DNA of 64,000 nt. It comes from Serratia marcescens (GTDB lineage Bacteria; Pseudomonadota; Gammaproteobacteria; Enterobacterales; Enterobacteriaceae). Position numbers and translations under genes: made by a program. The notes beneath the pieces are model-generated. The model worked only from the letters and a program-made list of their open reading frames with translations, searched no databases and had not been told where the DNA came from. Location: the NCBI GenBank assembly GCA_015548865.1, contig JADMXW010000021.1, positions 1 to 64,000 of the forward strand. Reading direction: 5' to 3'. Position 1 is the stretch's first letter. Each line of letters starts with the position of its first letter. Below, one piece after another: positions 875-14,991 of the stretch.

Positions 875-1239
875 GGCATGACTCCTGAAAATTCAATAAA
901 AAGAAAAAATAAACAATAAAATCATAAGCAAAGATTATGCAGTACCGTTATTTTACCTCAATTGTCCGACAGCGTACAGCCGAAGACCCACACTGCAACA
1001 GAATGGCGCAGACATGCACATCTGCAAAGCAATGCGCACCACATTGACACAAAACAATTGCTGTTTAACGCACCACGGCCTCGCGCAAAAGCGCACAGGC
1101 TGTGCAACTACGCCCTAATAGGGTGCAATCTCCTTTCAGCCCCCCGCTAACGGACTGCTGAAAAATTGAATTGCGTGATTTGGCATTTTTTATGCATGGC
1201 AACCATTATCTTCTTATTGCGTAATGCCTGGAGATGCCA
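875..1239. other. intergenic region between yjdM and the Anbu operon
   Basis: No gene is seen. It must hold the divergent promoters for yjdM and the ATP-grasp gene. Small perfect palindromes occur at 1093-1105 (GCACA-GGC-TGTGC) and 1113-1123 (CCCTA-A-TAGGG). They could be operators, but no known regulator is recognised. A GGAG ribosome binding site at 1230-1233 supports the start at 1240. Confidence 0.4.
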
Positions 1240-2679
1240 ATGATAAAAATAACGCTTCCTAGTGGACCCTATTACGATGAAATGCTAACGGCAGAGGGAC
1301 GGCAGCGGCAGCATTACGATCCCTGGTGGCGCTGGCTGCAACGCACCGATCAGCAATCGGTACGGCAGAAAAAAGAGCAGGCAGAGCTGCTGTTTCATCG
1401 GGTGGGGATTACCTTTAACGTATACGGTGACGATGAGGGCACCGAACGACTGATTCCTTTTGACAGCGTACCGCGCATTATTCCAGCAGCGGAATGGCGC
1501 AAACTCGACAGTGGCATTCGCCAACGCGTCAAGGCGCTGAATGCTTTTCTACACGATATCTATCACGACCAGCACATCCTCAAAGCAGGGATCATTCCCG
1601 CTGAACAGGTGCTGGCAAACGAGCAATTTCAACCCTGTATGCAGGGCATTACCCTGCCCAACCAGATTTATGCCCACATCACCGGCATTGATATGGTACG
1701 CAACAGCGACGGCGAATATTACGTACTGGAGGATAATCTACGTACCCCATCCGGCGTTTCCTACATGCTGGAAAACCGCAAAATGATGATGCGCCTCTAC
1801 CCTGATATGTTTGCCGAGCAACATATTGCGCCCGTTGAGCGTTACCCCAGCTACCTGCTGCAAACCTTGCGAGAAAGCTCTCCGGTCGACGATCCCTGTG
1901 TAGTTGTCATGACGCCGGGGCGCTTCAACAGTGCCTATTTTGAGCACAGCTTCTTAGCACAACAGATGGGGGTGGAACTGGTTGAAAGCGCCGACTTGTT
2001 TATCAAGGAGGGGGCGGTTTACATGCGTACTACCGCCGGGCCGCGCAAAGTAGATGTTATCTACCGCCGCATTGATGACGCCTTTCTCGATCCGCTGGCG
2101 TTCCGTGCTGACTCCATGCTCGGCGTGCCGGGTCTCTTATCGGTGTATCGCGCGGGTGGCGTGGTACTCGCCAACGCTATCGGCACTGGCGTAGCCGATG
2201 ATAAATCCATCTATCCTTACGTGCCGGAAATGATTCGTTTCTACCTGAGCGAAGAACCACTATTGAACAACATTCCTACCTGGCAATGCCGCAAACCCGA
2301 GGATTTGCGCTTCGTGTTGGATAATCTGGATCACATGGTCGTGAAGGAGGTCCACGGTGCAGGTGGCTACGGCATGTTGGTAGGGCCCCGTGCCAGCCGC
2401 GCCGAAATAGAGGAATTTCGCCAGCGGTTGTTGGCCAACCCAGCGAACTACATTGGGCAAGAGACGCTGGCGCTCTCCACCTGTCCAACCTTTGTGGAAC
2501 AAGGACTGGCCCCGCGCCATATCGATCTGCGTCCCTTTGTGCTTTATGGTCAGGAGATCCGCCTGGTCCCTGGCGGATTGACGCGTGTGGCGCTTACCGA
2601 GGGCTCACTGGTCGTGAACTCTTCACAGGGTGGCGGAACCAAGGACACCTGGGTAATGGAGGATGACGAATCATGCTAA
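1240..2679 (+). CDS. circularly permuted ATP-grasp protein of the Anbu operon
   Basis: This 479-residue protein belongs to the circularly permuted type-2 ATP-grasp family (COG2308, formerly DUF404/DUF407). Visible family segments are the YVLEDNLRTPSGVSYMLENR block around residues 165-185 and the GVADDK and VVKEVHGAGGYGM nucleotide-binding stretch in the C-terminal third. ATP-grasp enzymes usually join a carboxylate to an amine, so a peptide-ligase-like reaction is plausible, but the substrate is unknown. The start at 1240 is chosen over the ATG at 1234 because the GGAG motif lies six bases before it and would abut the earlier codon. It overlaps the next gene by 7 bp, which suggests translational coupling. 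Confidence 0.93.
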   Translation: MIKITLPSGPYYDEMLTAEGRQRQHYDPWWRWLQRTDQQSVRQKKEQAELLFHRVGITFNVYGDDEGTERLIPFDSVPRIIPAAEWRKLDSGIRQRVKALNAFLHDIYHDQHILKAGIIPAEQVLANEQFQPCMQGITLPNQIYAHITGIDMVRNSDGEYYVLEDNLRTPSGVSYMLENRKMMMRLYPDMFAEQHIAPVERYPSYLLQTLRESSPVDDPCVVVMTPGRFNSAYFEHSFLAQQMGVELVESADLFIKEGAVYMRTTAGPRKVDVIYRRIDDAFLDPLAFRADSMLGVPGLLSVYRAGGVVLANAIGTGVADDKSIYPYVPEMIRFYLSEEPLLNNIPTWQCRKPEDLRFVLDNLDHMVVKEVHGAGGYGMLVGPRASRAEIEEFRQRLLANPANYIGQETLALSTCPTFVEQGLAPRHIDLRPFVLYGQEIRLVPGGLTRVALTEGSLVVNSSQGGGTKDTWVMEDDESC

Positions 2680-3602
2680 GCCGTACAGCCAGTGAACTGT
2701 TTTGGATGGCGCGTTATCTTGAACGTGCAGAAAGCTTTGCCCGTGTACTGGACGTCACCTATAAGCTATCGATGGTGCCGCGCCATAGCCAGCAGCAGCG
2801 CGATCTGGCGCTGCCGCTGAATCTCTCTCTGACTCATGAACTGTTTCACTCGCGTTATACACAGTTTTCCATGGGAAATCTGATCAACTTTTTTGCTCTC
2901 GACAGCGATAACCCCAGCAGCATATACAGCTGTGTAGAAATGGCGTGGAACAACGCGCATGCCGTGCGCGGTAGCCTCTCTGCCGAGGTGTGGGAGTGCA
3001 TTAACACAACGCGCATTCAGCTACGAACGCTGCGGCAAAAAGGGGTGGAAGAAGTCGGTATCGATGCTTTTTTTGACTGGGTAAAAGATCGCGCCCATCT
3101 GTTTCGCGGTGCGGTGTTCGGCACCTTGTTGCGCAACGATGCGCTCTGTTTTATTCGTATCGGCACGCTGATCGAGCGGGCGTTCGCCACGACGCAACTG
3201 CTGTTACTCAAAGATCAGCAACTCAACAACGATACCGATCCAGTGCGTGAATACTATCGATTGGATACGCTGCTGCGCGCAGTCAGCGCACGCGAGGCCT
3301 ACAATAGTATCTATCGCCAACCGGTGACGCGCGATACGGTAGCCGAGTTATTAATCTTGCGTAACGATGTGCCACGCTCTCTGCGTGCCTGTATCGAAGA
3401 TGTCGTTGGACAGTTGGAGCAGATCGCCAATACTCGTTCTCACCTGCCGTTACGCCTGGCGCACCAGTTGAATGTCGATCTGCGTTTCAGCACGCGGGAG
3501 GATTTGGCGCAATCGGATATGCAGGATTATCTCACTGGGCTGCTGGCCCGTATTAACGCGCTGGCTGACAGCGTACGGCAAACCTATCTGGAGACGGTAT
3601 GA
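2673..3602 (+). CDS. alpha-E domain protein of the Anbu operon
   Basis: This 309-residue protein belongs to the alpha-E family (COG2307). The N-terminus has the typical MLSRTASELFWMARYLERAE-type opening, and the rest is mostly helical. Molecular function is unknown. The family is almost always encoded with an ATP-grasp and a transglutaminase-like protein, as here. The start codon overlaps the ATP-grasp stop, and its own stop overlaps the next ATG (ATGA), so the four genes form a tight operon. It is not predicted to be secreted. Confidence 0.92.
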   Translation: MLSRTASELFWMARYLERAESFARVLDVTYKLSMVPRHSQQQRDLALPLNLSLTHELFHSRYTQFSMGNLINFFALDSDNPSSIYSCVEMAWNNAHAVRGSLSAEVWECINTTRIQLRTLRQKGVEEVGIDAFFDWVKDRAHLFRGAVFGTLLRNDALCFIRIGTLIERAFATTQLLLLKDQQLNNDTDPVREYYRLDTLLRAVSAREAYNSIYRQPVTRDTVAELLILRNDVPRSLRACIEDVVGQLEQIANTRSHLPLRLAHQLNVDLRFSTREDLAQSDMQDYLTGLLARINALADSVRQTYLETV

Positions 3603-4408
3603 AACTGACCATTAACCATCTCACGCGCTATCACTATGATGAGCAAGTGAAATTCAGCACCCAGTATCTGCGTTTGACGCCGCGTAACTCTGCCCGCCAG
3701 CGCGTAAATTCATGGTCCTTAACATTGTCCAGCGGGTCTGCGGTGGCCACCACCGACACTTGGGGCAACGTATTGCATGTCCTGACATTAGATCATCCCC
3801 ACAGCGAAATTATCGTTCATGCTCAGGGCGTGGTAGACATTGCCGATAACGATGATATCGCGTCAGAGGAAGAGCATCTGTCACCATTGGTGTTCCTGCG
3901 CAACACGCCCCTAACCCAGGCAGATGCGCCCATTCGCGAGTTTGCGCTGCGCTATTACCGTCCAGAGGCAGCGGAAGAGAGCCTGAATGCATTGATGGCT
4001 GCTCTGTTGGTCAGTATGCCCTACACCCCCGGAGCCACGCAGGTGCAAGATAGCGCTGCGCAGGCCTTTACACGCGGGCAGGGAGTCTGTCAGGATCACA
4101 CCCATGTATTTCTGGCCTGTTGTCGTAGCCTGCACCTTCCAGCACGTTATGTGAGTGGTTACGTTCACAGCCCGGATTCACATCATGTAGCAATGCATGC
4201 CTGGGCGGAAGTGTGGCTGAATGGCCGCTGGCTGAGTTTTGATATCACCAACAATTCGCGCAGCCTGACGCAGCATTTGCGTCTGGCAACCGGGTTGGAC
4301 TATCTGGATGCCTGCCCGATACGTGGCAGCCGTCTGGGTGGCGGAAGCGAAATGCTGTTTTCTGAAGCTGAAGTGCGGCGCTTTTCACAACAGGCGCAGC
4401 AGCAATAA
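3599..4408 (+). CDS. transglutaminase-like cysteine protease of the Anbu operon
   Basis: This 269-residue protein has an N-terminal bacterial transglutaminase-like domain (about residues 1-90) and a transglutaminase/protease core. The catalytic triad is visible: Cys164 in GQGVCQDHTH, His200 in VAMHAWAEV and Asp215 in WLSFDIT. This fold hydrolyses or transfers amide bonds. It is probably cytoplasmic, since no signal peptide is seen. It lies between the alpha-E gene (4-bp overlap) and the Anbu peptidase (18-bp gap), an arrangement conserved around Anbu in many proteobacteria. Substrate unknown. Confidence 0.93.
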   Translation: MKLTINHLTRYHYDEQVKFSTQYLRLTPRNSARQRVNSWSLTLSSGSAVATTDTWGNVLHVLTLDHPHSEIIVHAQGVVDIADNDDIASEEEHLSPLVFLRNTPLTQADAPIREFALRYYRPEAAEESLNALMAALLVSMPYTPGATQVQDSAAQAFTRGQGVCQDHTHVFLACCRSLHLPARYVSGYVHSPDSHHVAMHAWAEVWLNGRWLSFDITNNSRSLTQHLRLATGLDYLDACPIRGSRLGGGSEMLFSEAEVRRFSQQAQQQ

Positions 4409-4426
4409 CCATGAGATGATCGGATT

Positions 4427-5155
4427 ATGACTTACTGTGTGGCCATGTGCCTGTCGGACGGGCTGGTATTTGCCTCGGACTCCCGCACCAACGCCGGGGT
4501 GGACCATATTGCAACGTTTAAAAAACTGCATGTGATTCACCGCGACAATGATCGAGTACTGGTGCTTCAGTCCGCCGGGAACCTGGCCACCACACAAAGT
4601 ATTGTCAGCCTGCTGGAATCGCGCATGCGCAGTGACAACGAGCCTAACTTGTTGCAGGTGTCTACCCTCTATGACGCCGCAACGCTTGTCGGTGCCACAT
4701 TGCGAGAAGTTATCGATCGTGATAGCCGTATGCAACAACATGCCAGCAGCACCAATTTTGGTTGCAACTTGTTGCTCGGTGGGCAAATCGCCGGGGAAGC
4801 CCCCCGGCTGTTTCATATCTATCCCGAAGGCAATTTTATCGAGGCAACGCGCGACACGCCTTACTTCCAGATTGGTGAAAGCAAATACGGCAAGCCGATC
4901 ATCGACCGAGTATTGTCCGTGGAGACAACGTTAGAGCAGGCGATGTGCTGTGCGCTGATTTCCATTGACTCAACGTTGCGCAGCAATCTGTCTGTAGGGC
5001 TACCGCTGGATGTGATGATTTATCGAGCTGATAGCTTTGATGCCAGCGGACAGCGTCGTGTCACAGAAGATGATCCCTATTTTGCGACGATTCGCAAAGC
5101 ATGGTCAGAAGGATTGCAGAATACGTTTCGCCAATTGCCGCCCTTTTCGCTCTAG
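4427..5155 (+). CDS. Anbu proteasome-type peptidase
   Basis: This 242-residue protein matches Anbu (ancestral beta subunit, also BPH), a third bacterial proteasome relative beside HslV and the 20S beta subunit. It starts MTYCVAMCLSDGLVFASDSR, so removal of Met exposes Thr2 as the expected catalytic nucleophile. The SDSR motif and the Lys near residue 33 (FKKLHV) fit the Ntn-hydrolase fold. Published Anbu proteins form open helical assemblies, but the substrate and any unfoldase partner remain unclear. It closes the four-gene operon and converges with the P-type ATPase gene, sharing four bases (CTAG) at the two stop codons. Confidence 0.93.
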   Translation: MTYCVAMCLSDGLVFASDSRTNAGVDHIATFKKLHVIHRDNDRVLVLQSAGNLATTQSIVSLLESRMRSDNEPNLLQVSTLYDAATLVGATLREVIDRDSRMQQHASSTNFGCNLLLGGQIAGEAPRLFHIYPEGNFIEATRDTPYFQIGESKYGKPIIDRVLSVETTLEQAMCCALISIDSTLRSNLSVGLPLDVMIYRADSFDASGQRRVTEDDPYFATIRKAWSEGLQNTFRQLPPFSL

Positions 5156-7269
5156 CTCGCCACGCGCGTTCGTCTGGCCGCCAGAGCGCGCAGCAATACG
5201 GCAAGGGTGGTGCCATTATGCAACAGTGCGCTGCCTCCAGGGGAGAGTCCTCCCAGTGCTGCCGTTAGCATGATGCCGCTGTTTACCCATTCTGTCAGGG
5301 CGATATTGCTGTGTACCAGCTTCATCGCCTCCAGCGCCAATTCACGCGCCAGCACGACTCCGTTCAGGTTATCCTGCATTAACACCGCATCCGCCGCCTG
5401 CTGCGCCAGTTCAGTGCTCTGGTTCATGGCCAGCCCAACATCCGCCTGCGCCAGCACCGGCGCGTCGTTCACCCCATCACCAATGAACAGCACCCTGCGC
5501 CCTTGCTGTTGCAGTTCCTGAACCGCATCCACCTTGCTCTCAGGTGTGCATTCCGCCACGCACTCATCAATCGCTAATGCGTGGGCCAGTTGCTGTGCCT
5601 TTTCAACGCGATCGCCGGTCAACAACACAATACGATCGATCCCCGACTGGCGAAGTTGTGCAATCACATCACGTGCTTCTGCCCGCACGTTATCCTGTAA
5701 GCCAATCATTCCGACCAACCGTTCATCGAGGCTGATGAACAACAAGTGGCACCCTTGCTGGGCCAACGCAGTAATTTCAGCCTCATAAGGTGAGAAAATC
5801 ACCTGATAGTGTGCTTCCAGAAAATGACGGCTCCCGATCGCCATGCGGTGACCATCCAGCTCACACAACAGACCGTGCGCAATCACATACTCCACTTCGC
5901 CGTGGTTGATATGGGGTAACGCATGGTGATGCGCTGCCGCCACAACCGCTTTCGCCAGTGGGTGGTTGCTGTGTTCTTCGACAGAAGCAGCTATCGCCAG
6001 CAATCGCTCTGCCCAGGCCCGCTCCGGATCGAAACTGACCACTTCCGTTACCTGCATATCGCCATGCGTCAGAGTACCGGTTTTATCGAATACCACCGTA
6101 TCGACGGCAGCGAGCTGTTCAATCGCACGCCCGCCTTTAAGTAACAAACCACTTTGCGCCGCGCGATACATGATGGATTTAAACGCGATCGGCGTACTTA
6201 GCTTCAACGCACAGGCATAATCAACCAAAAACACCGATGCCAGACGACGCCAGTCGCGTGTCAGAGCAAACACAGCCCCACCGACACCGAGCGTGATCGC
6301 CACGCGCCTGTCGGCCATCGCTTGCGTCACTTTTTGCGTTTCACTCTGCTGGCTCAATGATTCACTGATAAAGCGTCGGATGTTGGCAATGGAGGAGTCT
6401 TCCCCGACCCTCTCCGCCCGCACGGCAATATTCCCTTCCTGCACTTGGGTGCCCGCATACAGCCACGCGCCCTTTTCGCGCCGCACCGGCACACTTTCTC
6501 CAGTCATGGAGGCCTGATTAATCAAGCCGACACCTCGTAATACCTTGCCGTCCGCCGGAATGGTATCCCCCGGTCCGAGCAGCATCACTTCTCCAACAGT
6601 TAACGCTGATGAAAGAATTTGAATACGTTCCCCTGCACGCTCGACCCACACAGTGTGTTCCTGTGGCCGTAGCAGACTGGCCAGCAACGCATCAGAATGG
6701 CGACTGGTCTCTTGCTCCATGTACTCGCCCAGCGTCAGCAATGTTTGTGTCAGCATCGCAGTGCGGTTATCACCACGTAGCAGGGAAAGGCCAACGGCCA
6801 GCGCATCCAGCACCTCAACATTCAACTCACGCCGCGTCAGCGATGCCACACCTTCGGCCAGCGTTTCGCCGGTCAGCAGCAGCGTCGGTAACGCAGCCCA
6901 ACGTCGAGGAAGACACTGGGCTAGCAGCAACCCCCCCGCATTGAGCAGATTATCACCGCCGCAATACTCCGGCTCATGATCGCTCTCGGTGCGTTGCTGC
7001 CAGTCAAAACCAGCCACGTGTGCCAACAACATGGGTTCATTGGTTTGTGCCGGATGGTATTCAATGACAACCGAACCTATGGCCGGACGCAGGCGCACCC
7101 GCGTAACCCCCAACTGCGCCAACAACTGATGACGCAACCAATTCGCCCCGTCAGGGAAACGTATCAGCAGCGCCACACGCAGCCGCAAACGCCCGGGCAG
7201 TCGGTGCAGCACGGTAACAGGCGCAGAGAGGGTGATATCCTCTTCATGCGCCGAAGTCAGCGTCCTCAC
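5152..7269 (-). CDS. P1B-6-like metal-translocating P-type ATPase (FezB-like)
   Basis: This 705-residue P1B-type ATPase has TGES (256-259) in the actuator domain, the phosphorylation motif DKTGT (395-399), the SNHPL-type nucleotide-site motif (434-438) and GDGVND (597-602). The membrane metal-site motif is ACALKLSTP (352-360), not CPC, CPH or SPC. An xCA motif is reported for the P1B-6 subgroup, which includes the ferrosome ATPase FezB. The N-terminus lacks a CxxC metal-binding domain and instead has an HMA2-like region with RLPGRLRLRV (24-33). Its start overlaps the upstream small-protein gene by 4 bp, so it is the last gene of a five-gene operon. Inferred role: moving ferrous iron into a vesicle or out of the cytoplasm. 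The metal itself is not proven by sequence. Confidence 0.85.
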   Translation of the reverse strand: MRTLTSAHEEDITLSAPVTVLHRLPGRLRLRVALLIRFPDGANWLRHQLLAQLGVTRVRLRPAIGSVVIEYHPAQTNEPMLLAHVAGFDWQQRTESDHEPEYCGGDNLLNAGGLLLAQCLPRRWAALPTLLLTGETLAEGVASLTRRELNVEVLDALAVGLSLLRGDNRTAMLTQTLLTLGEYMEQETSRHSDALLASLLRPQEHTVWVERAGERIQILSSALTVGEVMLLGPGDTIPADGKVLRGVGLINQASMTGESVPVRREKGAWLYAGTQVQEGNIAVRAERVGEDSSIANIRRFISESLSQQSETQKVTQAMADRRVAITLGVGGAVFALTRDWRRLASVFLVDYACALKLSTPIAFKSIMYRAAQSGLLLKGGRAIEQLAAVDTVVFDKTGTLTHGDMQVTEVVSFDPERAWAERLLAIAASVEEHSNHPLAKAVVAAAHHHALPHINHGEVEYVIAHGLLCELDGHRMAIGSRHFLEAHYQVIFSPYEAEITALAQQGCHLLFISLDERLVGMIGLQDNVRAEARDVIAQLRQSGIDRIVLLTGDRVEKAQQLAHALAIDECVAECTPESKVDAVQELQQQGRRVLFIGDGVNDAPVLAQADVGLAMNQSTELAQQAADAVLMQDNLNGVVLARELALEAMKLVHSNIALTEWVNSGIMLTAALGGLSPGGSALLHNGTTLAVLLRALAARRTRVAS

Positions 7270-7583
7270 GACGCATCATTCTCCTGCTGGCGATAGTAAT
7301 CCAACTCCGCCTGAAGATCCGCCAGCCGCTCTTTTAACTCTTCCACTTCGCCGCGCACAGTCCCCCACGCTTTTTTTGCCGTGGTAGATAACCCCTGCTG
7401 CACCTGCGGGTTAGTCAATAAATAGGCAATCGCCGCACCAGCAACCACGCCAGTCACAAAATGGGTTTTACTGTTTGCCTGACGATAAGGTGCCGGTGAC
7501 GAGGGTTGAGGGTAATTGGCATAAGCAACCTGCCCATTCGGCAAACGGTAAGCGTAAACATAAGGCATATTGGGAGGGGTCAT
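7266..7583 (-). CDS. small YtxH-like membrane protein of the ATPase operon
   Basis: This 105-residue protein has a Tyr/Pro-rich N-terminus (about 1-35), then one hydrophobic segment, VVAGAAIAYLLTN (46-58), and a C-terminal amphipathic coiled-coil-like helix (about 75-100). The hydrophobic segment has small-residue packing typical of glycine-zipper or YtxH-type proteins. The core GAA-I/V-xx-LLTN is shared with the protein encoded at 7896-8582, so the two may be paralogues. Its start touches the stop of the preceding gene and its stop overlaps the ATPase start. Ferrosome clusters are known to encode small membrane-associated proteins beside the ATPase. Assignment to a named Fez protein is not justified. 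Confidence 0.75.
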   Translation of the reverse strand: MTPPNMPYVYAYRLPNGQVAYANYPQPSSPAPYRQANSKTHFVTGVVAGAAIAYLLTNPQVQQGLSTTAKKAWGTVRGEVEELKERLADLQAELDYYRQQENDAS

Positions 7584-7912
7584 TATTGTGCTCCTTCTTC
7601 GGGGTGAGCCTGTTGCGGTTCACGCCTCTGCATAGCATCCAATACATAGAGACTGGCAACACCGGCGCTCGCCAACGTCAACCAGGTAAGCAAAGGTCGC
7701 CCTGCGCTAGCGCTGGCCACGGCCATCACTGCACCGCTCACCACGCCCGCTTTGGCAGCATCGCTTGCCACTTTGACGGCACTTTCATTCAGTGTCGTTT
7801 CACCGCGTTGGTAACGTCGCCACTGCTCGATGCAAGAGGTTGTGGTGCCCACCAGTGCACCAGCCACAACCGCGCGGCTAATTGGACTCAGTGCATCACG
7901 GTTGTTGCTCAT
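7583..7912 (-). CDS. small multi-pass membrane protein of the ATPase operon
   Basis: This 109-residue protein of unknown family has two or three hydrophobic alanine/glycine-rich segments (about residues 13-26, 55-68 and 75-93) separated by a charged stretch containing QWRRYQRGETTLNE. No enzymatic motif is visible. The start at 7912 is chosen because it is preceded by GGAGACACCGG. It overlaps the end of the upstream gene by 17 bp, which implies coupled translation. The membrane topology and position suggest a structural or partner subunit for the ATPase. That is inferred from context only. Confidence 0.7.
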   Translation of the reverse strand: MSNNRDALSPISRAVVAGALVGTTTSCIEQWRRYQRGETTLNESAVKVASDAAKAGVVSGAVMAVASASAGRPLLTWLTLASAGVASLYVLDAMQRREPQQAHPEEGAQ

Positions 7913-8582
7913 CCGGTGTCTCCTCAGGCGCAGCAGTTGCTGCACGCTGGCGCTCTACCGAGGCCTGAAATTCCGCTTTACCCGCCTTCACTGTGTCGCG
8001 AAAAATGGTGCTGCCAGCAGCAACGCTCTCTTTCACACTCTCAGCGCCGCTGGCAACAGAGGATTTCACTTTGTCGCTGCCGGTTTTGAGCAGATCGCCT
8101 GCACTTGCCAATGTTTGCGTCAGCGTTTGGCGAACGCTGTCATTGGTCAGCAACAGCGTAACGGCGGCGCCGATCATCGCCCCTTTCCAAAACTCTTTAT
8201 CATCTGCACCGATAGTACTAATCAGGCTTTTCAACAACCCAGCCTGTTCCCCCATCACATTCTCAACCACACCTTGGGCGTGTGCACTCCAATCAACACC
8301 CGGTGCGGCATGATGCCCATGATGATACGGAGCCTGCGGCACACTATTCCCCGGAAGGGGATATCCTTGCCACACATAGCCTGGAGGTAAATAACCCGGC
8401 GGTACATAACCAGGGGGGACTGCGCCTGGGGCTATCTGCGGATACCCTATCGGCTGCGGCGGCCATCCAGGAGGCGGTGGGAAAGCGCCTTGAGCTGCGG
8501 GATCGCCTTGCGGTACATAATAGGGATAGCCATAAGGCGGAAAATAGGGAGCCTGATTCACAGGATTATTATCATTACTCAT
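7896..8582 (-). CDS. Pro/Tyr-rich YtxH-like membrane protein with PPGY repeats
   Basis: This 228-residue protein is modular. Residues 1-90 are rich in Pro, Tyr and Gly, with three consecutive PPGY units at 56-69. A His cluster (HHGHH, 87-91) could bind metal. A hydrophobic segment, AMIGAAVTLLLTN (135-147), is followed by a long amphipathic tail (about 150-210) of YtxH/apolipophorin-like character. The start at 8582 is chosen for the GAGGG ribosome binding site five bases upstream. The N-terminal low-complexity region resembles XYPPX-type repeats of proteins that self-associate. In the context of a putative iron-vesicle operon, it could organise membranes or mineral. That function is inferred. 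Confidence 0.75.
   Translation of the reverse strand: MSNDNNPVNQAPYFPPYGYPYYVPQGDPAAQGAFPPPPGWPPQPIGYPQIAPGAVPPGYVPPGYLPPGYVWQGYPLPGNSVPQAPYHHGHHAAPGVDWSAHAQGVVENVMGEQAGLLKSLISTIGADDKEFWKGAMIGAAVTLLLTNDSVRQTLTQTLASAGDLLKTGSDKVKSSVASGAESVKESVAAGSTIFRDTVKAGKAEFQASVERQRAATAAPEETPDEQQP
8364..8417 (-). repeat. PPGY codon repeats within the Pro/Tyr-rich protein
   Basis: Three tandem five-residue units (PPGYV, PPGYL, PPGYV) followed by a divergent WQGYP unit are encoded here as 15-bp near-repeats. They are a protein-level repeat, not a CRISPR or VNTR locus. Confidence 0.7.
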
Positions 8583-8604
8583 AACGACCCTCACTTGAAT
8601 ACGT

Positions 8605-8937
8605 TTACTGGGAGAGCACGGCCTGAATTTGCGTCAGCGCCTGCTGCGCGGCGTGATCATCGTGACCAAACAAATGTGTCAGCAATGTTGGTGAGAGTGT
8701 GCTGGGACAATATTCCAGTACCACACTACCGGTTGCGGCATTAATGCTACACGTTTTCAGGCACCCATCGGGGTGACACAGTGATTGCAGTGCAGCCAAA
8801 CGGCTCTGGCTGAGTGCGGAGACCAACCGATTAGTAAAACTGAGACGGATACGCCCCGGTATATGGTGCGCTACGGTAACGAAACGGCGTAACGCCATCA
8901 AACTCTGCAAATCATCTGTCGCCATAACAGTGACCAC
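8605..8937 (-). CDS. HMA2-domain protein of the ATPase operon
   Basis: This protein of about 110 residues resembles the N-terminal region of the ATPase encoded downstream. It has HHIPGRIRLSF (about 28-38) and the TGSVVLEYCPS strand (about 69-79), parallel to LHRLPGRLRLRV and IGSVVIEYHPA in the ATPase. This is the HMA_2 family pattern, a ferredoxin-like domain without the CxxC metal motif. It is the first gene of the minus-strand operon. Start choice is uncertain: the GTG at 8937 follows GGGAGG closely, and an in-frame ATG lies at 8925. A role in docking to or regulating the ATPase is inferred from the shared domain. Confidence 0.75.
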   Translation of the reverse strand: MVTVMATDDLQSLMALRRFVTVAHHIPGRIRLSFTNRLVSALSQSRLAALQSLCHPDGCLKTCSINAATGSVVLEYCPSTLSPTLLTHLFGHDDHAAQQALTQIQAVLSQ

Positions 8938-9181
8938 AGCCTCCCTTTGCCAACCTACGTTAATGCCCTTTCAACACCGTGCGATATAGACCCATGCAAT
9001 GCACACAACAGAGCAACAAGGTTGCCCATGCACGACATCAGAAATGTAAATATTTTGCACGAATACAAGGTCACAATAACGTAACACCAAGAGAATCACT
9101 TAAGATTTATGCGGTTAATTGCAGGTTGTTTGTTTTTTATCAATTAGTGAGGTAAAGAGAGGTGATAGACACTCTCACTAC

Positions 9182-9200
9182 GATAATGTAAATTGTTATC
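9182..9200. promoter_or_regulatory. Fur-box-like palindrome
   Basis: GATAATGTAAATTGTTATC matches the 19-base Fur consensus GATAATGATAATCATTATC at 15 positions, including both outer GATAAT/TTATC arms. It lies 12 bases upstream of the HMA2-like gene at 9213 and in the divergent region before the ATPase operon, a position that fits iron-dependent repression of one or both arms. Binding is inferred from sequence only. Confidence 0.65.
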
Positions 9201-9212
9201 ATTCTAATCCTT

Positions 9213-9593
9213 ATGAGTCGCGGCGACATGTCTCCCTATCTACATCAAACTCAAAATCGCATTCGAATTCGCTCCGAATATATTCAGCGCAACCCGGAAC
9301 GCGTTACCGAGACGATTGCGCAATTGCGCCAGATCGCGGGTGTGTTGGAGATTACACATCGGCATTATGCTGGTTCTGTCGCGATTTGTTTCGACAGCAA
9401 AATTCTGTCTGGAGATGCGCTGCTTGCACATATCGAGCCAGAAGGCTGGCTCTCCGTCGCCAGAAACAAAACCTACATCGACAGATCCCTCCATCGCTAC
9501 ACCCGTTCGTTGGCAAAAGGACTGGCATTGATGACGCTGGATATGGCGATTAAAGGGCCGTTAGTCAAACGACTGGTTACGCTTGTGCGTTAA
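9213..9593 (+). CDS. HMA2-like protein divergent from the ATPase operon
   Basis: This 126-residue protein appears to be a third HMA2-type domain in the cluster. It carries QNRIRIRSEYIQRNP (about 12-26), then VLEITHRHYAGSVAICFDS (about 45-63), matching the strand order of the two other HMA2 domains. A C-terminal basic segment (about 85-126) has one weak hydrophobic stretch, KGLALMTLDMAI. The start is uncertain because no strong ribosome binding site precedes 9213, and ATG 9228 is an alternative. The Fur-like box immediately upstream suggests iron control. It resembles the small FezC/HMA-type proteins of ferrosome loci in outline, but homology cannot be proven here. Confidence 0.65.
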   Translation: MSRGDMSPYLHQTQNRIRIRSEYIQRNPERVTETIAQLRQIAGVLEITHRHYAGSVAICFDSKILSGDALLAHIEPEGWLSVARNKTYIDRSLHRYTRSLAKGLALMTLDMAIKGPLVKRLVTLVR

Positions 9594-9616
9594 ACTCCAC
9601 AGATATATCTATCTTC

Positions 9617-9796
9617 TATACCCCAAATAATTCAAATTGCGGGACAAAACGTTTACGTTTTGAACAGCGCTTGCGCTGATTCGTAGGGTGAATCTCAGGA
9701 TGAGATTCATCAATCCCGATGAGCTTACTCAAGGCTGTGATCCGGGTAAGCGAGCGTGGTCAACACACCTGCAACCTGAAGTATGGCGGGTATATA
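9617..9796. repeat. MITE-like intergenic repeat with imperfect terminal inverted repeats
   Basis: The element starts TATACCCCAAATAATTCA and ends in a segment whose reverse complement begins ATATACCCGCCATACTTCA, giving imperfect terminal inverted repeats of about 25 bases. It spans 180 bp between the HMA2-like gene and the exporter. Elements with these ends (ATACCC..ATA.TTCAA.TTGC) are common in intergenic DNA of Yersinia, Serratia, Pectobacterium and relatives. A truncated relative opens the window, and a degraded end lies near 59126. It has no coding capacity. Confidence 0.7.
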
Positions 9797-9858
9797 TGTG
9801 AGAATATAGCGCTTGGTGCCGTATTGAGGCCCGTTGAACGCATTTGGTTGGAGAAAAC

Positions 9859-10485
9859 ATGGCGCTACACCTCTGGCTCGCCTTTGTCGGCGTGATTACC
9901 GTTTTAATTGCCATTCCCGGTCCGTCTGCACTGATCAGCATGACGCACGGCTTACGCTATGGCCGTGGCCGCGCTGCCGCAACCGTGCTGGGTGGTGTGA
10001 CCGCAGCCCTGGTGCTGATGTCACTCTCGGCGCTGGGATTAGGAGCAATATTGGCTGCTTCAACGACAGCGTTTATGATCCTGAAAATCGTGGGTGCGTT
10101 GTACCTGATTTGGCTGGGTATCGCTTCGTGGCGCTCGGCAGCAACAGCTCACACGCCTGAACAGGTGCAGTCTGAGGCTTCGCCTACGCGTCGTTCACTG
10201 TTCCGCAAAGGCTTTCTGGTAGGTATCAGCAACCCGAAGGATCTGTTGTTTTTTGCTGCCCTGTTTCCCAACTTTATCAGCACGACAGAGCCCCATGCAC
10301 TCCAGTTCGCTATTCTGGCGCTGACGTGGATGCTGTTTGATTTCAGCATCATGTTTTTCTATGCCAGCACCGGGCGACATCTGTCGGGGGTATTTAGCAA
10401 TCCACGCCGTATGGCAATGCTCAACCGCACAACTGGCGGCGTGTTTATGCTGGCAGGATCGGCATTAGCGATCTCCAGCCGCTAA
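9859..10485 (+). CDS. LysE/RhtB family amino-acid exporter
   Basis: This 208-residue inner-membrane protein has about six hydrophobic segments. The LysE/RhtB signature is in the first third (AIPGPSALISMTHGLRYGRGRA), with SNPKDLLFFAALFP in the second half. The family exports amino acids such as homoserine, threonine or lysine, but the substrate cannot be read from sequence. Start 9859 is preferred because GGAGAAAAC ends just before it. It is a single gene between the dispersed repeat and a shared terminator, convergent with dhaM. Confidence 0.9.
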   Translation: MALHLWLAFVGVITVLIAIPGPSALISMTHGLRYGRGRAAATVLGGVTAALVLMSLSALGLGAILAASTTAFMILKIVGALYLIWLGIASWRSAATAHTPEQVQSEASPTRRSLFRKGFLVGISNPKDLLFFAALFPNFISTTEPHALQFAILALTWMLFDFSIMFFYASTGRHLSGVFSNPRRMAMLNRTTGGVFMLAGSALAISSR

Positions 10486-10506
10486 AGCAACATGCCATTT
10501 TAGCGT

Positions 10507-10534
10507 TTTACAGTCCCGCGACGCGGGACGTAAA
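10507..10534. terminator. bidirectional terminator between the exporter and dhaM
   Basis: A perfect stem GTCCCGCG/CGCGGGAC at 10513-10529 is flanked by TTTTACA on one side and GTAAACATCAAAA on the other. It lies between two convergent genes, as expected for a shared rho-independent terminator. Confidence 0.7.
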
Positions 10535-10553
10535 CATCAAAATCCCTCATGCT

Positions 10554-11993
10554 TTAGCGACCGATCTCTCCACTGTCATCATTGAAGGTGATCCTCTCGC
10601 CATGTTGCAATGACTGCGTATGACCAAGCTTATCGATAAATACCGGAATGCCCAGCGCCGTCGCCAACATCGCCGCGTGCGAGTTTCTGCCACTGTCGGT
10701 GAAGTAAATGCCTTTTATCCATGCGGGATCTAACAGCACCGTCTCAGAAGGCAGCAATATGTTCGCCACAATCACCATAGGTGTATGGCAGGGCGTGACT
10801 ACGCTGTCTGGCTGATGGTTCAAATGCCGCCAAACCTGCAGACCGACGTCATAGATATCAATATAGCGTTCACGCAGATAGGTATCTTCAATCGCCTGAT
10901 ACTCCTGCGCCAGTGCGCCAATCACCGCCAGCCATAGACTATCAACCTGCGCCGCGTCTTGCCGCATCCGCTCGGCAACGGCATCATACAACTCACCGTC
11001 CTCCAGCATCATGCGCTGTGCCATAAAGATAGCAGCTTCCTTGTCAGAAAGGCGTTGTGCAGTAAAGGTAAACAGTTCATCAAGATCTTGTACCGCAGCA
11101 TCGATTGCTTGTGTCAGCAGGGCTAATTCAGCCTGTGCGCCCAGACAGGCGCGCGGTGTCACTGTTGGCAACTTACGTTCTGTGCGACATACAGTGGCTG
11201 TAACTCGCTGTCCAACGGAATGCGGTTGAAGACGTACCGAAGAAGGGGTTGTCGCTTCGAGACGATCGCCAAAATGATTTTGTGCCAGCGAAGCAAACGC
11301 TTCAATCGCCTGTTGTGCCTGTTCCCCACTTGCCCGTAGCGTAACGTCATCGCCACGCTTGATAGCCAATAACGTAATATTATTCACGCTTTTGCCATTC
11401 ACAGCCTGAGCACCTTTCACCAACTGCACGTCGGCATTATAGCGATTGAGGCAAGTAGCAATAGCCGAGGCCGGGCGCGCATGAATGCCTGCGGGGTTTG
11501 CCACACGCCAGGAAAAGGTGAGTGCTGATGATGGCGTCTCTGTTGTCAAGGCTGTGGGAGAGATGGCTGCCGTCAGCTTATCGTCTTGACTTAACTGATG
11601 ATATTTCGCCACCAACGCTTGATTCGCTTCAGTAATGACCTGGCGAATATCACCACCAGAAGCGGCCATGACAGCCGCTGCTATCGTCCCTTCAACGAGA
11701 GGTGCCGCGCAGACGTGCACTCGGGTTGCATAAGCCTCCCCCAGCAGTTCCAGTGCCATGTCCGTGCTTAAAATCGCACTACCCATGTCAACCATTACCA
11801 GCACGTCATCCTCGTTGTCCATATCCTGAATTGCCGTCATTACGGCAATAGGATCGGTACCAATCGGGTTTTCAGGATCATCAATCCCGGCAGCCACCGC
11901 AAATTTCACACTACCGTGCGTCATCTGTGCAGCCAGCTCTACCACCCCTTCTGCCAATCGCTTACTGTGAGAAACCACCACGATATTGACCAT
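10554..11993 (-). CDS. dhaM: dihydroxyacetone kinase phosphotransfer subunit DhaM
   Basis: This 479-residue fusion phosphocarrier has three parts. It has an EIIA(mannose)-like domain (about 1-130, His9 in VVSHS), an HPr domain (about 158-240, His171 in NPAGIHARPAS) and an N-terminal enzyme-I-like domain (about 270-479, His439 in GRNSHAAML). It relays phosphate from PEP-phosphorylated PTS proteins to ADP bound on DhaL, so dihydroxyacetone is phosphorylated without free ATP. Length and order match E. coli DhaM (472 residues). It is the last gene of the dha operon, 35 bp after dhaL, and probably ends at the hairpin near 10507. Confidence 0.96.
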   Translation of the reverse strand: MVNIVVVSHSKRLAEGVVELAAQMTHGSVKFAVAAGIDDPENPIGTDPIAVMTAIQDMDNEDDVLVMVDMGSAILSTDMALELLGEAYATRVHVCAAPLVEGTIAAAVMAASGGDIRQVITEANQALVAKYHQLSQDDKLTAAISPTALTTETPSSALTFSWRVANPAGIHARPASAIATCLNRYNADVQLVKGAQAVNGKSVNNITLLAIKRGDDVTLRASGEQAQQAIEAFASLAQNHFGDRLEATTPSSVRLQPHSVGQRVTATVCRTERKLPTVTPRACLGAQAELALLTQAIDAAVQDLDELFTFTAQRLSDKEAAIFMAQRMMLEDGELYDAVAERMRQDAAQVDSLWLAVIGALAQEYQAIEDTYLRERYIDIYDVGLQVWRHLNHQPDSVVTPCHTPMVIVANILLPSETVLLDPAWIKGIYFTDSGRNSHAAMLATALGIPVFIDKLGHTQSLQHGERITFNDDSGEIGR

Positions 11994-12028
11994 TTTCTAC
12001 AGCCTTACCCAGTCGGGTTATCAGGGGA

Positions 12029-12658
12029 TCACATATCCACGACATCACAGAGTGTTTTAAACAACAGATAGCTGGACGTAGCACCAGGATCTTGATGTCC
12101 GATGGAGCGTTCCCCAAGATAACTGGCCCGGCCTTTTGCCGCGCGCATTGGAATTGTGCTCTTCATTCCCTGCTCCGCCGCTTGTAACGCATCCGAGAGT
12201 GAAGAGGAAAGCGGGCTCTCTTGCCGAGTCTTTAGTGATTCCACAATCGCACTGAGCGTATCTACCATGGTTTTATCGCCTGGGTGTGCCATACCTCGCG
12301 CGATAATACGCTCTGTTCCTTCCTGATACATATGGTAGAGATCCGTTACCGTCAGTTCTTCTTTTGCCATGACGGTTTCTGCCGCTTTGATAAAAAAGGT
12401 GCCATACAGAGGTCCGCTGGCGCCACCAATGGTAGAAAGCAGCACCATGCCGGTATTCTTCATAATGGTGCCGATATCTTTATCCGCCAGCGTCGGCAGC
12501 TTTTCCTTTACCTTCCTAAAGCCACGGTTCATGTTCAATCCATGATCTGCATCGCCAATTTCACGATCCAAATCAGTAAGGAACTCTTGCTGTTTTTCAA
12601 ATACATCGGCTGAAGCGTCCAGCCAGGAGATCACCTTGTTTTTCGTTACCACCATCAT
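12029..12658 (-). CDS. dhaL: dihydroxyacetone kinase ADP-binding subunit DhaL
   Basis: This 209-residue protein carries the DhaL signature REIGDADHGLNMNRGF, whose Asp residues bind Mg-ADP, then GGASGPLYGTFF and the C-terminal GRASYLGERSIGHQDPGA. In PTS-type enzymes ADP stays bound as a cofactor and is rephosphorylated by DhaM. A second ATG three bases downstream is an equally good start behind GAGG. It follows dhaK after a 93-bp gap containing a hairpin. Confidence 0.96.
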   Translation of the reverse strand: MMVVTKNKVISWLDASADVFEKQQEFLTDLDREIGDADHGLNMNRGFRKVKEKLPTLADKDIGTIMKNTGMVLLSTIGGASGPLYGTFFIKAAETVMAKEELTVTDLYHMYQEGTERIIARGMAHPGDKTMVDTLSAIVESLKTRQESPLSSSLSDALQAAEQGMKSTIPMRAAKGRASYLGERSIGHQDPGATSSYLLFKTLCDVVDM

Positions 12659-12715
12659 CGCACCTCAGTTTTTACCGCATCAACGCCGGATGCAGGCTGC
12701 ACTGCATTTCCGCGA

Positions 12716-12740
12716 GAGCTGCCACCGTTAGCGGCAGCTC
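12716..12740. promoter_or_regulatory. intercistronic hairpin between dhaK and dhaL
   Basis: Perfect 8-bp stem GAGCTGCC/GGCAGCTC with a 9-base loop. No U-tract follows in the direction of transcription. It is more likely an mRNA stability or processing element, or a small palindromic repeat, than a strong terminator. Confidence 0.5.
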
Positions 12741-12751
12741 GCTTGATTTAA

Positions 12752-13816
12752 CTACATTTTCCATCTCAGCGCCGGAGTGCTGACCGGGAAATCCCACAGG
12801 GAGAGCATTTCGTCATCCGCTTTCAGCACTGTGATGGAGACGCCCTGCATATCAATCGCGCTGCAATAGGTTCCAACCAGATTGCGCGCAATGTTGATCT
12901 GCTTCGCCGCCAAAACCTCTGCCACTTTGCGATAAACGCCATATAGCTCCGAAGCAGGCGTAGCTCCTAGACCGTTAACCAACACAATGACATTGTCACC
13001 TGCATTGAGCGGCGTTGTAGTACGGGTATCGTCAATCCATTCGCCTTTTTTTCGATCCCATTGTCGTAACGTCCGCACATAAGGTGTGTTATCGAGAATT
13101 TCATCCAGCATGGCGCTGACGATAGTATCGCCATCAGTATATTTCTCCCGGCGAATACCGGGTTCACCGTGAATACCAATGCCGAATTCGATCTCATCTT
13201 CCGGCAAAGAGAAGCTGGGCTTGCCCGCCGCAGGCACGGTGCATGAGGAAAGTGCCACACCGATGGAGCGTCCCTGGTTGGCAATACGTGTCGCCAAGGC
13301 TGCACATTGATCCAGGCTATACCCCTCTTCTGCCGCTGCGCCCAGCAGTTTCTCCGCCAGCACAGTGGTAGCAACACCCCGACGACCCGCGGTATACAAA
13401 CTGTCTTTCACCGCAACATCATCATCAATAACGGCCACCTGTACGGCAATGCCTTCACCATGCAACAACTCAGCAGCCGTCTCAAAATTAAGGATATCCC
13501 CGGTATAGTTTTTAATCAGCAACAGTACGCCATTATCATTGCTGATATTCTGGGCACATTCATACATTTGATCAGGCGTAGGTGAGGTAAAAATATGGCC
13601 GGGGCACGCGCCATCCAGCATGCCAAAACCGACAAAACCGGCGTGCATAGGCTCATGCCCGGAGCCTCCGCCGGAGAGCAATACCACTTTAGGTTTGTTC
13701 GAACGACGACAGACATAGAAAGGCTCGGTATTAACCGTCAATTCGGGGTGTGCGAGTGCAAAACCTTCAAGCTGTTCTCTGACAACATCATCAACCTTGT
13801 TGATTAGCTTTTTCAT
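12752..13816 (-). CDS. dhaK: dihydroxyacetone kinase substrate-binding subunit DhaK
   Basis: This 354-residue protein forms a covalent hemiaminal with dihydroxyacetone. The catalytic His is His216 in FGIGIHGEPG. SGGGSGHEPMHAGFVG (about 48-63) and the LLLIKNYTGD stretch belong to the Kaufman family of DhaK. The start at 13816 (MKKLINKV) is chosen because AGAGGAAGGG precedes it and the length then matches E. coli DhaK (356). The upstream open-frame extension is not protein-like. It acts in glycerol/dihydroxyacetone catabolism with DhaL and DhaM, and the facilitator gene just upstream would supply substrate. Confidence 0.96.
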   Translation of the reverse strand: MKKLINKVDDVVREQLEGFALAHPELTVNTEPFYVCRRSNKPKVVLLSGGGSGHEPMHAGFVGFGMLDGACPGHIFTSPTPDQMYECAQNISNDNGVLLLIKNYTGDILNFETAAELLHGEGIAVQVAVIDDDVAVKDSLYTAGRRGVATTVLAEKLLGAAAEEGYSLDQCAALATRIANQGRSIGVALSSCTVPAAGKPSFSLPEDEIEFGIGIHGEPGIRREKYTDGDTIVSAMLDEILDNTPYVRTLRQWDRKKGEWIDDTRTTTPLNAGDNVIVLVNGLGATPASELYGVYRKVAEVLAAKQINIARNLVGTYCSAIDMQGVSITVLKADDEMLSLWDFPVSTPALRWKM

Positions 13817-13887
13817 GACCCTTCCTCTTGATGAACGCCCTTTCACGGGGAAAGAGCGACGTCCATGGGTGAGCGGAGAACCGCCCG

Positions 13888-14607
13888 TTAGGCAAAAACA
13901 GGTAAAAATTTGTAGCACAGCGCACCGATACCACCACCAATCAGCGGACCGACAATCGGTACCCAGGCATAGCCCCAATCGGAATGCCCTTTATTTTTGA
14001 TTGGCAGTAGGGCATGAGCAATTCTCGGCCCTAAATCACGCGCCGGGTTGATGGCATAGCCCGTAGGGCCCCCTAACGACAGGCCAATGCTATAGACCAG
14101 AATCCCCACCGCAAACGGACCAAAACCGGACGCAATCCCGTTGTGAGAATTAAAAATCCCCAGTACGCCAAAGACTAAAACAGCAGTACCGATAATTTCT
14201 GTGACCATGTTCCACTTAAAGTCGCGCACCGCCGGTCCGGTGGAAAAAGTCGCCAATATGAGTCCGGCATCGTCAGTCACATCGTAGTGACGTTTGTAGG
14301 TAAGATAGACCAGAATAGAACCGAGAAAGGCACCGATACACTGAGCAATGACATAGGCCAATGCCATGGTGCCGGAGATGCTGCCGTACAGCCACATCCC
14401 AAATGTGACGGCCGGATTCAGATGCGCCCCACTCACCCAGCCCGTGATATATACGGCGATTGCTACTGCAAATCCCCACCCGGCGGTAATAACGATCCAG
14501 CCGCTATTACCGCCCTTGGTACGCGCTAACACCACGTTGGCTACTACACCGTTGCCAAGCAGTATCAGCACCATGGTGCCAATCAATTCTGCAAGAAAAG
14601 CGTTCAT
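13888..14607 (-). CDS. aquaglyceroporin (GlpF-like)
   Basis: This 239-residue MIP-family channel has both pore motifs: HLNPAVTFG in the first half and GYAINPARDLGPR in the second. The Asp after the second NPAR is typical of glycerol-conducting members. About six membrane segments are visible. It starts at 14607 after AAGGA. It is the first gene of a likely operon with dhaK, dhaL and dhaM, so its inferred job is uptake of glycerol and perhaps dihydroxyacetone. It is a dha-linked GlpF relative, not necessarily the glpFK copy. Confidence 0.93.
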   Translation of the reverse strand: MNAFLAELIGTMVLILLGNGVVANVVLARTKGGNSGWIVITAGWGFAVAIAVYITGWVSGAHLNPAVTFGMWLYGSISGTMALAYVIAQCIGAFLGSILVYLTYKRHYDVTDDAGLILATFSTGPAVRDFKWNMVTEIIGTAVLVFGVLGIFNSHNGIASGFGPFAVGILVYSIGLSLGGPTGYAINPARDLGPRIAHALLPIKNKGHSDWGYAWVPIVGPLIGGGIGALCYKFLPVFA

Positions 14608-14779
14608 CGTTGTTTCCTTTCGTTTTAGGTTGAGGGAATTACCCACATGACTTAACGAACACGATGAGAGTAGAGAGTGGGGTCAGTGCTGTAAAAAAAG
14701 TTTTTTTGTTCAATTCAGAAACAAATTTTTGCTCAAAAATGTTTCAATAAGGAACATAAAAAAAGCTACCCGTAGTATT

Positions 14780-14797
14780 ATTTGACGCCTGTCAAAT
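14780..14797. promoter_or_regulatory. perfect inverted repeat, candidate DhaR operator
   Basis: ATTTGAC-GCCT-GTCAAAT is a perfect 7-4-7 palindrome midway between the divergent glpF-like and dhaR genes. Its position fits an operator for DhaR or another dimeric regulator. Assignment to DhaR is inferred from location only. Confidence 0.45.
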
Positions 14798-14809
14798 TGA
14801 AGAAAAAGT

Positions 14810-14825
14810 TGTGCAGCAGTTCACA
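14810..14825. promoter_or_regulatory. CRP-like binding site
   Basis: TGTGC-AGCAGT-TCACA differs from the core TGTGA-N6-TCACA at one base and has the correct six-base spacer. It lies between glpF/dhaKLM and dhaR. Catabolite control of glycerol and dihydroxyacetone genes would be sensible, but this is a motif match only. Confidence 0.5.
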
Positions 14826-14991
14826 ATACGCATAAAAAATCATTTATTTCAATAAATTAAATATAGGTAATGGTTTTATATAAAAACCAGCACCGTCGGC
14901 GATATGCGTCACACAACCGGCAAAATATTTCCAAAATGGAACATAAATGCGCTACATATTTTCCAGTGATGGCTCGCGGCAGGAGGTATCT

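Follow-up and report, generated by a model that had tools for sequence, protein, structure and literature searches.

We describe a cluster of six genes at positions 5152-9593 of a stretch of Serratia marcescens DNA (contig JADMXW010000021.1; the window, 64,000 nucleotides, to whose full length all positions refer). It is probably a ferrosome (fez) cluster, of the kind that has six genes. Judging by its gene set and the clade of its ATPase, we read it as a real and intact member of that kind, with wide conservation. The new point is that it holds a homologue of MamC, a membrane protein of the magnetosome. The features of the cluster are as follows.

5152-7269, minus strand: FezB-type P1B ATPase of 705 residues, as assigned by open reading frame (ORF), Pfam and NCBIfam matches, motifs and tree
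7266-7583, minus strand: small protein of 105 residues (ORF), which adjoins the ATPase in relatives too
7583-7912, minus strand: MamC-like membrane protein of 109 residues; likely ATG at 7912, longest ORF to 7945
7896-8594, minus strand: protein of 232 residues (ORF), with a weak YtxH-like segment and C-terminal 11-residue repeats
8605-8937, minus strand: HMA_2-like protein of 110 residues, with IPGRIRLS and without CxxC
9182-9200, plus strand: palindrome resembling a Fur box, GATAATGTAAATTGTTATC, in the divergent intergenic region
9213-9593, plus strand: divergent HMA_2-like protein of 126 residues, with NRIRIRS and without CxxC

Read along the minus strand from 8937 to 5152, the order is HMA_2-like protein, 232-residue protein, MamC-like protein, 105-residue protein and ATPase. 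Adjacent genes overlap by 1 to 17 bases (4 bp between the 105-residue gene and the ATPase gene), except for a 10-base gap between the HMA_2-like and 232-residue genes. The original prediction, made from the letters of this DNA, had proposed a ferrosome-type cluster around a P1B-6-like ATPase, and all its ORFs and features were found at or very near the positions it gave. These include three tightly coupled small membrane proteins (7266-7583, 7583-7945 as longest ORF, and 7896-8594, all on the minus strand), two further HMA_2-like proteins (8605-8937 on the minus and 9213-9593 on the plus strand, both below the Pfam threshold) and the Fur-like box at 9182-9200. What it missed is the relationship to MamC and the place of the divergent HMA_2 gene in a widely conserved layout. 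The set includes the gene at 9213-9593, and the description is here corrected to a five-gene operon plus one divergent HMA_2 gene.

The ATPase carries DYACALKLSTP in transmembrane segment 4, before DKTGTLT, together with TGES, HP and GDGVNDAP. Its N-terminus is a degenerate HMA_2 domain (residues 18-85) with LPGRLRLR, and the protein contains cysteines but no CxxC. The ACALKLSTP motif, the lack of CxxC and the arginine-rich PGRxRL N-terminus of the original prediction are all confirmed. The start codon is uncertain, as alignments to relatives begin near residue 9-18. We take the xCA motif in transmembrane segment 4, following the original prediction, to be the mark of the P1B-6 subgroup. Among 84 related ATPases, DY[SA]CALKL is found in 80 and PGRxR in 68, the latter against 1 of 21 reference ATPases. 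An N-terminal CxxC is seen in 2 of the 84 relatives, while 18 of the 21 references have a CxxC somewhere in the protein. In Cereibacter azotoformans the motif reads DYACPVKL in the alignment.

In a phylogenetic tree, 29 ATPases of the window kind, drawn from the 84 relatives plus the window, form one clade with 100/100 support, and 18 CPC-type ATPases and 3 KdpB fall outside it. The references come from eight of nine genomes or records, and the CopA-, ZntA- and FixI-like labels on the CPC-type sequences were assigned by eye. The joining of ZntA-like rows to KdpB was flagged as a long-branch effect; the clade of interest is unaffected by it. The CPC-type enzymes (CopA, ZntA, FixI) share the P1B core and the catalytic motifs with the window ATPase but differ from it in having the CPC motif and mostly CxxC, and in their position in the tree. 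The expectation that the ATPase would not fall with Cu, Zn or Co exporters thus holds as regards the CPC type; the P1B-4 (SPC, Co type) and CPH subgroups lie outside the sample. Identity as a Cu/Zn exporter was rejected on this separation.

These results also bear on the possibility of a metal-resistance module, with an ATPase that transports a metal other than iron. NCBIfam places the protein in the heavy-metal subfamilies TIGR01525 and TIGR01512, and the tree was drawn without SPC (Co-type) ATPases, both of which leave some room for this explanation. Against it are the clade separate from the CPC-type enzymes, the missing CxxC metal domain, the iron-uptake genes beside some copies and the Fur-like boxes that some family members have. 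We consider it very unlikely.

None of the six proteins of the cluster contains a CxxC. The two small HMA_2-like proteins and the N-terminus of the ATPase score 28.0, 29.3 and 27.5 bits with the Pfam HMA_2 model, whose gathering score is 30. The 105-residue protein has a proline- and tyrosine-rich N-terminus, one hydrophobic segment and a glutamate-rich C-terminus, with a weak, sub-threshold similarity to YtxH. The N-terminus of the 232-residue protein is rich in proline, glycine and tyrosine. This protein is also repetitive: at a lag of 11 residues its self-identity is 0.34, against 0.16 at the next best lag, and 11 is the best repeat lag in 35 of its 61 relatives. Repeats of 11 residues are of a kind known from membrane-binding helices. 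The amphipathic moment of the repeat region is not above chance, being reached by 22% of shuffles, and our claim is therefore limited to the 11-residue repeat itself.

The gene set is widely conserved, with copies in Enterobacterales, Vibrionaceae, Shewanella and Ferrimonas. The same genes in the same layout were counted by hand in 18 named genera, a recurrence beyond chance. Of 90 sources searched with profiles derived from the window, 88 have the MamC-like gene, and each of the other cluster genes turns up in 89-90. These counts are not independent: each HMA_2 profile also picks up the other one and the ATPase, and the two YtxH-like profiles likewise cross-match. The two sources without a MamC-like gene are L109, where a contig edge lies beside the ATPase, and L119. 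The scan of named genomes was made with a Vibrio-led alignment and used the best 80 of 473 confirmed relatives, a set to which the named Fez genomes do not belong. Five genes plus a divergent HMA_2 gene are found in Vibrio, Photobacterium, Shewanella, Ferrimonas, Moritella and Endozoicomonas, among others, and also in Budvicia, Leminorella, Kluyvera, Hafnia, Brenneria and Symbiopectobacterium. The last of these is described in a passage of PMC10019282 as insect-associated and also isolated from potato tubers. Automatic detection recovered the divergent HMA pair in 63 of the 90 sources.

A second layout, with six co-directional genes, occurs in Azospirillum (overlapping ORFs, read by eye) and in one genome of the genus Shewanella, G1064. 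Its order is HMA with a hydrophobic tail, HMA, small protein, MamC-like protein, transmembrane protein and ATPase. No window-derived profile matches the third of these genes, and five of the six genes of G1064 are matched; its ATPase and the S. fidelis one share 38% identity. The window differs from this version in having one HMA_2 gene divergent and two proteins with proline- and tyrosine-rich tails. Both layouts, the co-directional one and the one with the divergent HMA_2 gene and Pro/Tyr-rich partners, are thus found within the genus Shewanella.

Within the family as defined by GTDB, 19 of 246 genomes and 11 of 154 genera carry the ATPase set, while an even draw across the class gives 2 of 369 genomes, the window's own counted. 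In the genus Shewanella the fraction is 12 of 129 genomes, and the MamC-like gene lies beside the ATPase at all 12 loci. In the genus of the window all five genomes have an ATPase match, again with the window's own counted. No near-identity match to positions 4000-11000 was found in the E. coli genomes. In Cereibacter azotoformans the cluster lies on a plasmid typed as conjugative, with FeoA, TonB receptors and a sigma factor/FecR pair beside it; the set may therefore travel.

Iron genes lie near some of the distant copies. Among 89 scanned proteins, of 127 candidates, in the flanks of 25 distant loci there are 8 TonB receptors and 6 FeoB, and the Arcobacter copy has two TonB receptors around the cluster. 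Further, the Fur-like box of the window matches the E. coli consensus at 15 of 19 positions, where the best of 60 shuffles reaches 14, and the identical 19 bases stand at the cluster in all four other genomes of the genus; other relatives have Fur-like boxes of varied quality. Over 63 divergent regions the mean best Fur match is 13.5, compared with 11.3 in shuffles. It beats all 60 shuffles in 19 of these regions and does not in the other 44. This suggests iron control through Fur for part of the family, with a weak case at any single locus.

The middle small protein of the cluster is where the tie to magnetosomes lies. The NCBIfam MamC model (NF038051) matches it at 30 bits (E 4.8e-7), or at 30.1 bits (E 4.6e-7) in its 109-residue form, which does not reach the cut-off of 100 bits. 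Of 26 members of the MamC-like family, 22 match MamC at E 0.01, and no other family matches more than one member. Applied at E 0.001, the model finds a match in 16 of 398 Pseudomonadota genomes and in none of 14 control genomes. Thirteen of the 16 are above the cut-off (118-141 bits). The three below it are the window gene, a gene of Vibrio rhodolitus and one of the genome G830, all within this cluster. One of the 13 over-cut-off loci was inspected, and MamZ, MamX, a MamD/Mms6-like protein and FeoB are present there. At E 0.01 the model finds 9 of 12 cluster-bearing genomes, two of them weakly, and always at the cluster.

Comparison of profiles with hhalign gives a score of 61.8 for 11 window-type sequences, none of them magnetotactic, where 59 column shuffles reach at most 18.8. 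For the 26-sequence set the score is 86.8; the reversed profile gives 18.7 and the best of 60 column shuffles 14.3, and the four neighbouring families of the cluster score 12-18 against MamC. A profile built from 10 MamC sequences matches 90 of 5041 ORFs, and all 90 belong to the MamC-like family (105 such ORFs, some from loci that share a genome). In the reverse direction the family profile recovers every one of the 10 MamC sequences but matches no sequence among 200 shuffled copies; it includes two proteins from a Magnetovibrio metagenome-assembled genome, which are not in any magnetosome cluster that was seen. In that genome (L095:374-883) two MamC-like genes lie near a FezB-type ATPase and FeoB, and the NCBIfam model finds only the in-cluster one, weakly.

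Could this resemblance be convergence of short membrane proteins rich in alanine and glycine, rather than ancestry? The identity is low and 30.1 bits is far from 100; 4 of the 26 family members and 3 of the 12 genomes are silent to the model, and the protein of the divergent cluster in G1064 has no NCBIfam match and is tied in by the family profile alone (36 bits). Set against this, the hhalign scores far exceed those of shuffled and reversed profiles, also for the non-magnetotactic sequences, the model finds nothing in the 398 genomes except MamC or genes of this cluster, and the matches of the MamC profile stay within a single family. We therefore regard convergence as most improbable. The comparisons support that the middle small protein is a remote MamC homologue, with common ancestry and an iron-organelle setting.

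This support does not extend to the mineral contact. The loop of MamC contacts magnetite via Asp66 and Glu70, as given in the relevant passage of PMC6206293; we assigned these residues by spacing to the invariant D45 and E49 of the MamC alignment. At the Asp66 position the window protein has K, where 3 of 47 relatives have D and 10 have E; at the Glu70 position it has D, and 23 of the 47 have D or E there. As the magnetite-contacting Asp is not conserved, the alignment does not support the same mineral contact as in MamC. The identification as MamC proper was rejected, given the score below the cut-off and the absent contact residue. MamC has two transmembrane helices with a loop; in the 120-residue ORF, Kyte-Doolittle analysis marks residues 59-86 and 84-105 as hydrophobic. 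A search for solved structures of the MamC-like family gave none at E 1.

MamC (Mms13) of magnetotactic bacteria and the window protein are alike in being small membrane proteins, alignable over about 80 residues, in an iron-organelle context. They differ in neighbourhood: MamC stands among magnetosome genes, whereas the neighbours of the window protein are fez-type genes and include no magnetosome genes. In the part of PMC3905215 that treats it, the MamC family is listed as without a conserved domain, and no crystal defects are reported for the MamC-only deletion in M. gryphiswaldense. Our searches of the open-access literature showed no published link between MamC and ferrosomes; the subscription papers on ferrosomes lie outside their reach and may note one. 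The ferrosome passages of PMC12713370 hold no MamC link, and "mamc" in the text found in PMC12778047 is part of a surname.

A six-gene fez operon is found in Shewanella putrefaciens and also in Rhodopseudomonas palustris. In the latter, ferrosomes are made from six fez genes, RPA2333-2338, as stated in a passage of PMC12016538, and an excerpt of PMC6879726 lists rpa2333-2338 alongside genes for metal-ion transport that go down in low light. This operon resembles the window in having six genes including the ATPase, as do the six conserved genes here, and a P1B ATPase of the xCA kind, a subgroup label that follows the original prediction. The FezABC set of Desulfovibrio magneticus and the FezX-FezAB set of Clostridioides difficile likewise have a FezB-type ATPase at the centre; their known partner genes differ from those of the window. 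FezA and FezB of C. difficile are needed for ferrosomes and repressed by Fur (PMC12574912, in part), and FezC of D. magneticus is described as a DUF4405-like cytochrome in a passage of PMC11334425.

How might such a set work? We infer iron as the substrate, vesicles, the regulation and all roles of the small proteins. Under iron scarcity Fur would leave its box and the cluster genes would be expressed. The P1B ATPase, in vesicles derived from the inner membrane, would move Fe(II) into the lumen at the expense of ATP, and the MamC-like protein in the vesicle membrane may be in contact with the iron deposit or organise it. Coating or shaping of the vesicle might fall to the two anchored proteins whose tails are rich in Pro and Tyr, one of which has 11-residue repeats; a coat or curvature role of the repeat protein is speculation, since its amphipathicity is not above that of shuffles. 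The arginine-rich HMA_2 proteins without CxxC may dock on the ATPase or on anionic lipid or phosphate.

The same genes could be read as plain Fe(II) efflux with no organelle, the ATPase exporting to the periplasm and the small proteins being accessory or scaffold subunits. P1B ATPases are typically exporters, nothing of a vesicle is visible in the sequence itself, and FeoB and TonB neighbours fit detoxification as well as storage. However, an efflux pump would not usually come with five conserved partners, among them a MamC homologue and two proteins that combine a hydrophobic segment with a tail, and in R. palustris ferrosomes are the product of the six-gene kind. We hold efflux to be unlikely.

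A number of observations weigh against a ferrosome cluster. At E 0.1 none of the six proteins matches DUF4405, and a fezABC cluster of the D. magneticus type was rejected for lack of this FezC match. The named Fez proteins of D. magneticus, C. difficile, S. putrefaciens and R. palustris were compared by description and not by sequence, and the FeoB and TonB counts in the flanks come without a background rate. A looser palindrome pattern has 2 matches in the 64 kb against 0.42 expected, and 2 are reached by 6 of 100 shuffles, so the Fur-like box alone is evidence only modestly above chance. FNR-like sites, with 7 matches in the window and 4.6 expected, are not above chance. FeoB and four matches to the ferritin family, one of which contains a stop, are further present in the host genome, so the cluster would not be the only iron store of the host. 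The cluster has decayed in G001 and G003, two of the other four genomes of the genus: stops break the ATPase, and the HMA_2 and MamC-like genes are shortened. Finally, the window's own flanks, a proteasome-subunit cluster and dihydroxyacetone kinase-type genes, are not iron genes. A promoter scan (2 found, 4.1 in shuffles) was given no weight, nor were the FNR-like sites.

As to these flanks, positions 1234-5155 encode a circularly permuted ATP-grasp, an Alpha-E, a transglutaminase-like and a proteasome-subunit protein, a make-up known from the Anbu proteasome-like system. The last gene of this cluster is convergent with the ATPase gene, and their ends overlap by 4 bases. On the other side, at 10554-16974, are dihydroxyacetone kinase-type genes, a GlpF-like channel and a DhaR-like regulator, as judged by eye from the translations.

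Ferrosomes are a recently described organelle. Among the small proteins of the set, the MamC-like one is singled out for asking what shapes the iron deposit. As the full set is present in an enterobacterial window and also in Hafnia, Kluyvera, Shewanella and Vibrio species, tractable hosts exist. Iron-storage vesicles and magnetosomes are usually described apart, and the MamC homologue in the set is a concrete, testable tie between them. With moderate confidence we propose that six-gene ferrosomes and magnetosomes share a homologous membrane protein and that MamC is a branch of an older and wider iron-organelle family; the magnetosome would then have recruited parts for mineral control from iron-storage vesicles, or the reverse.

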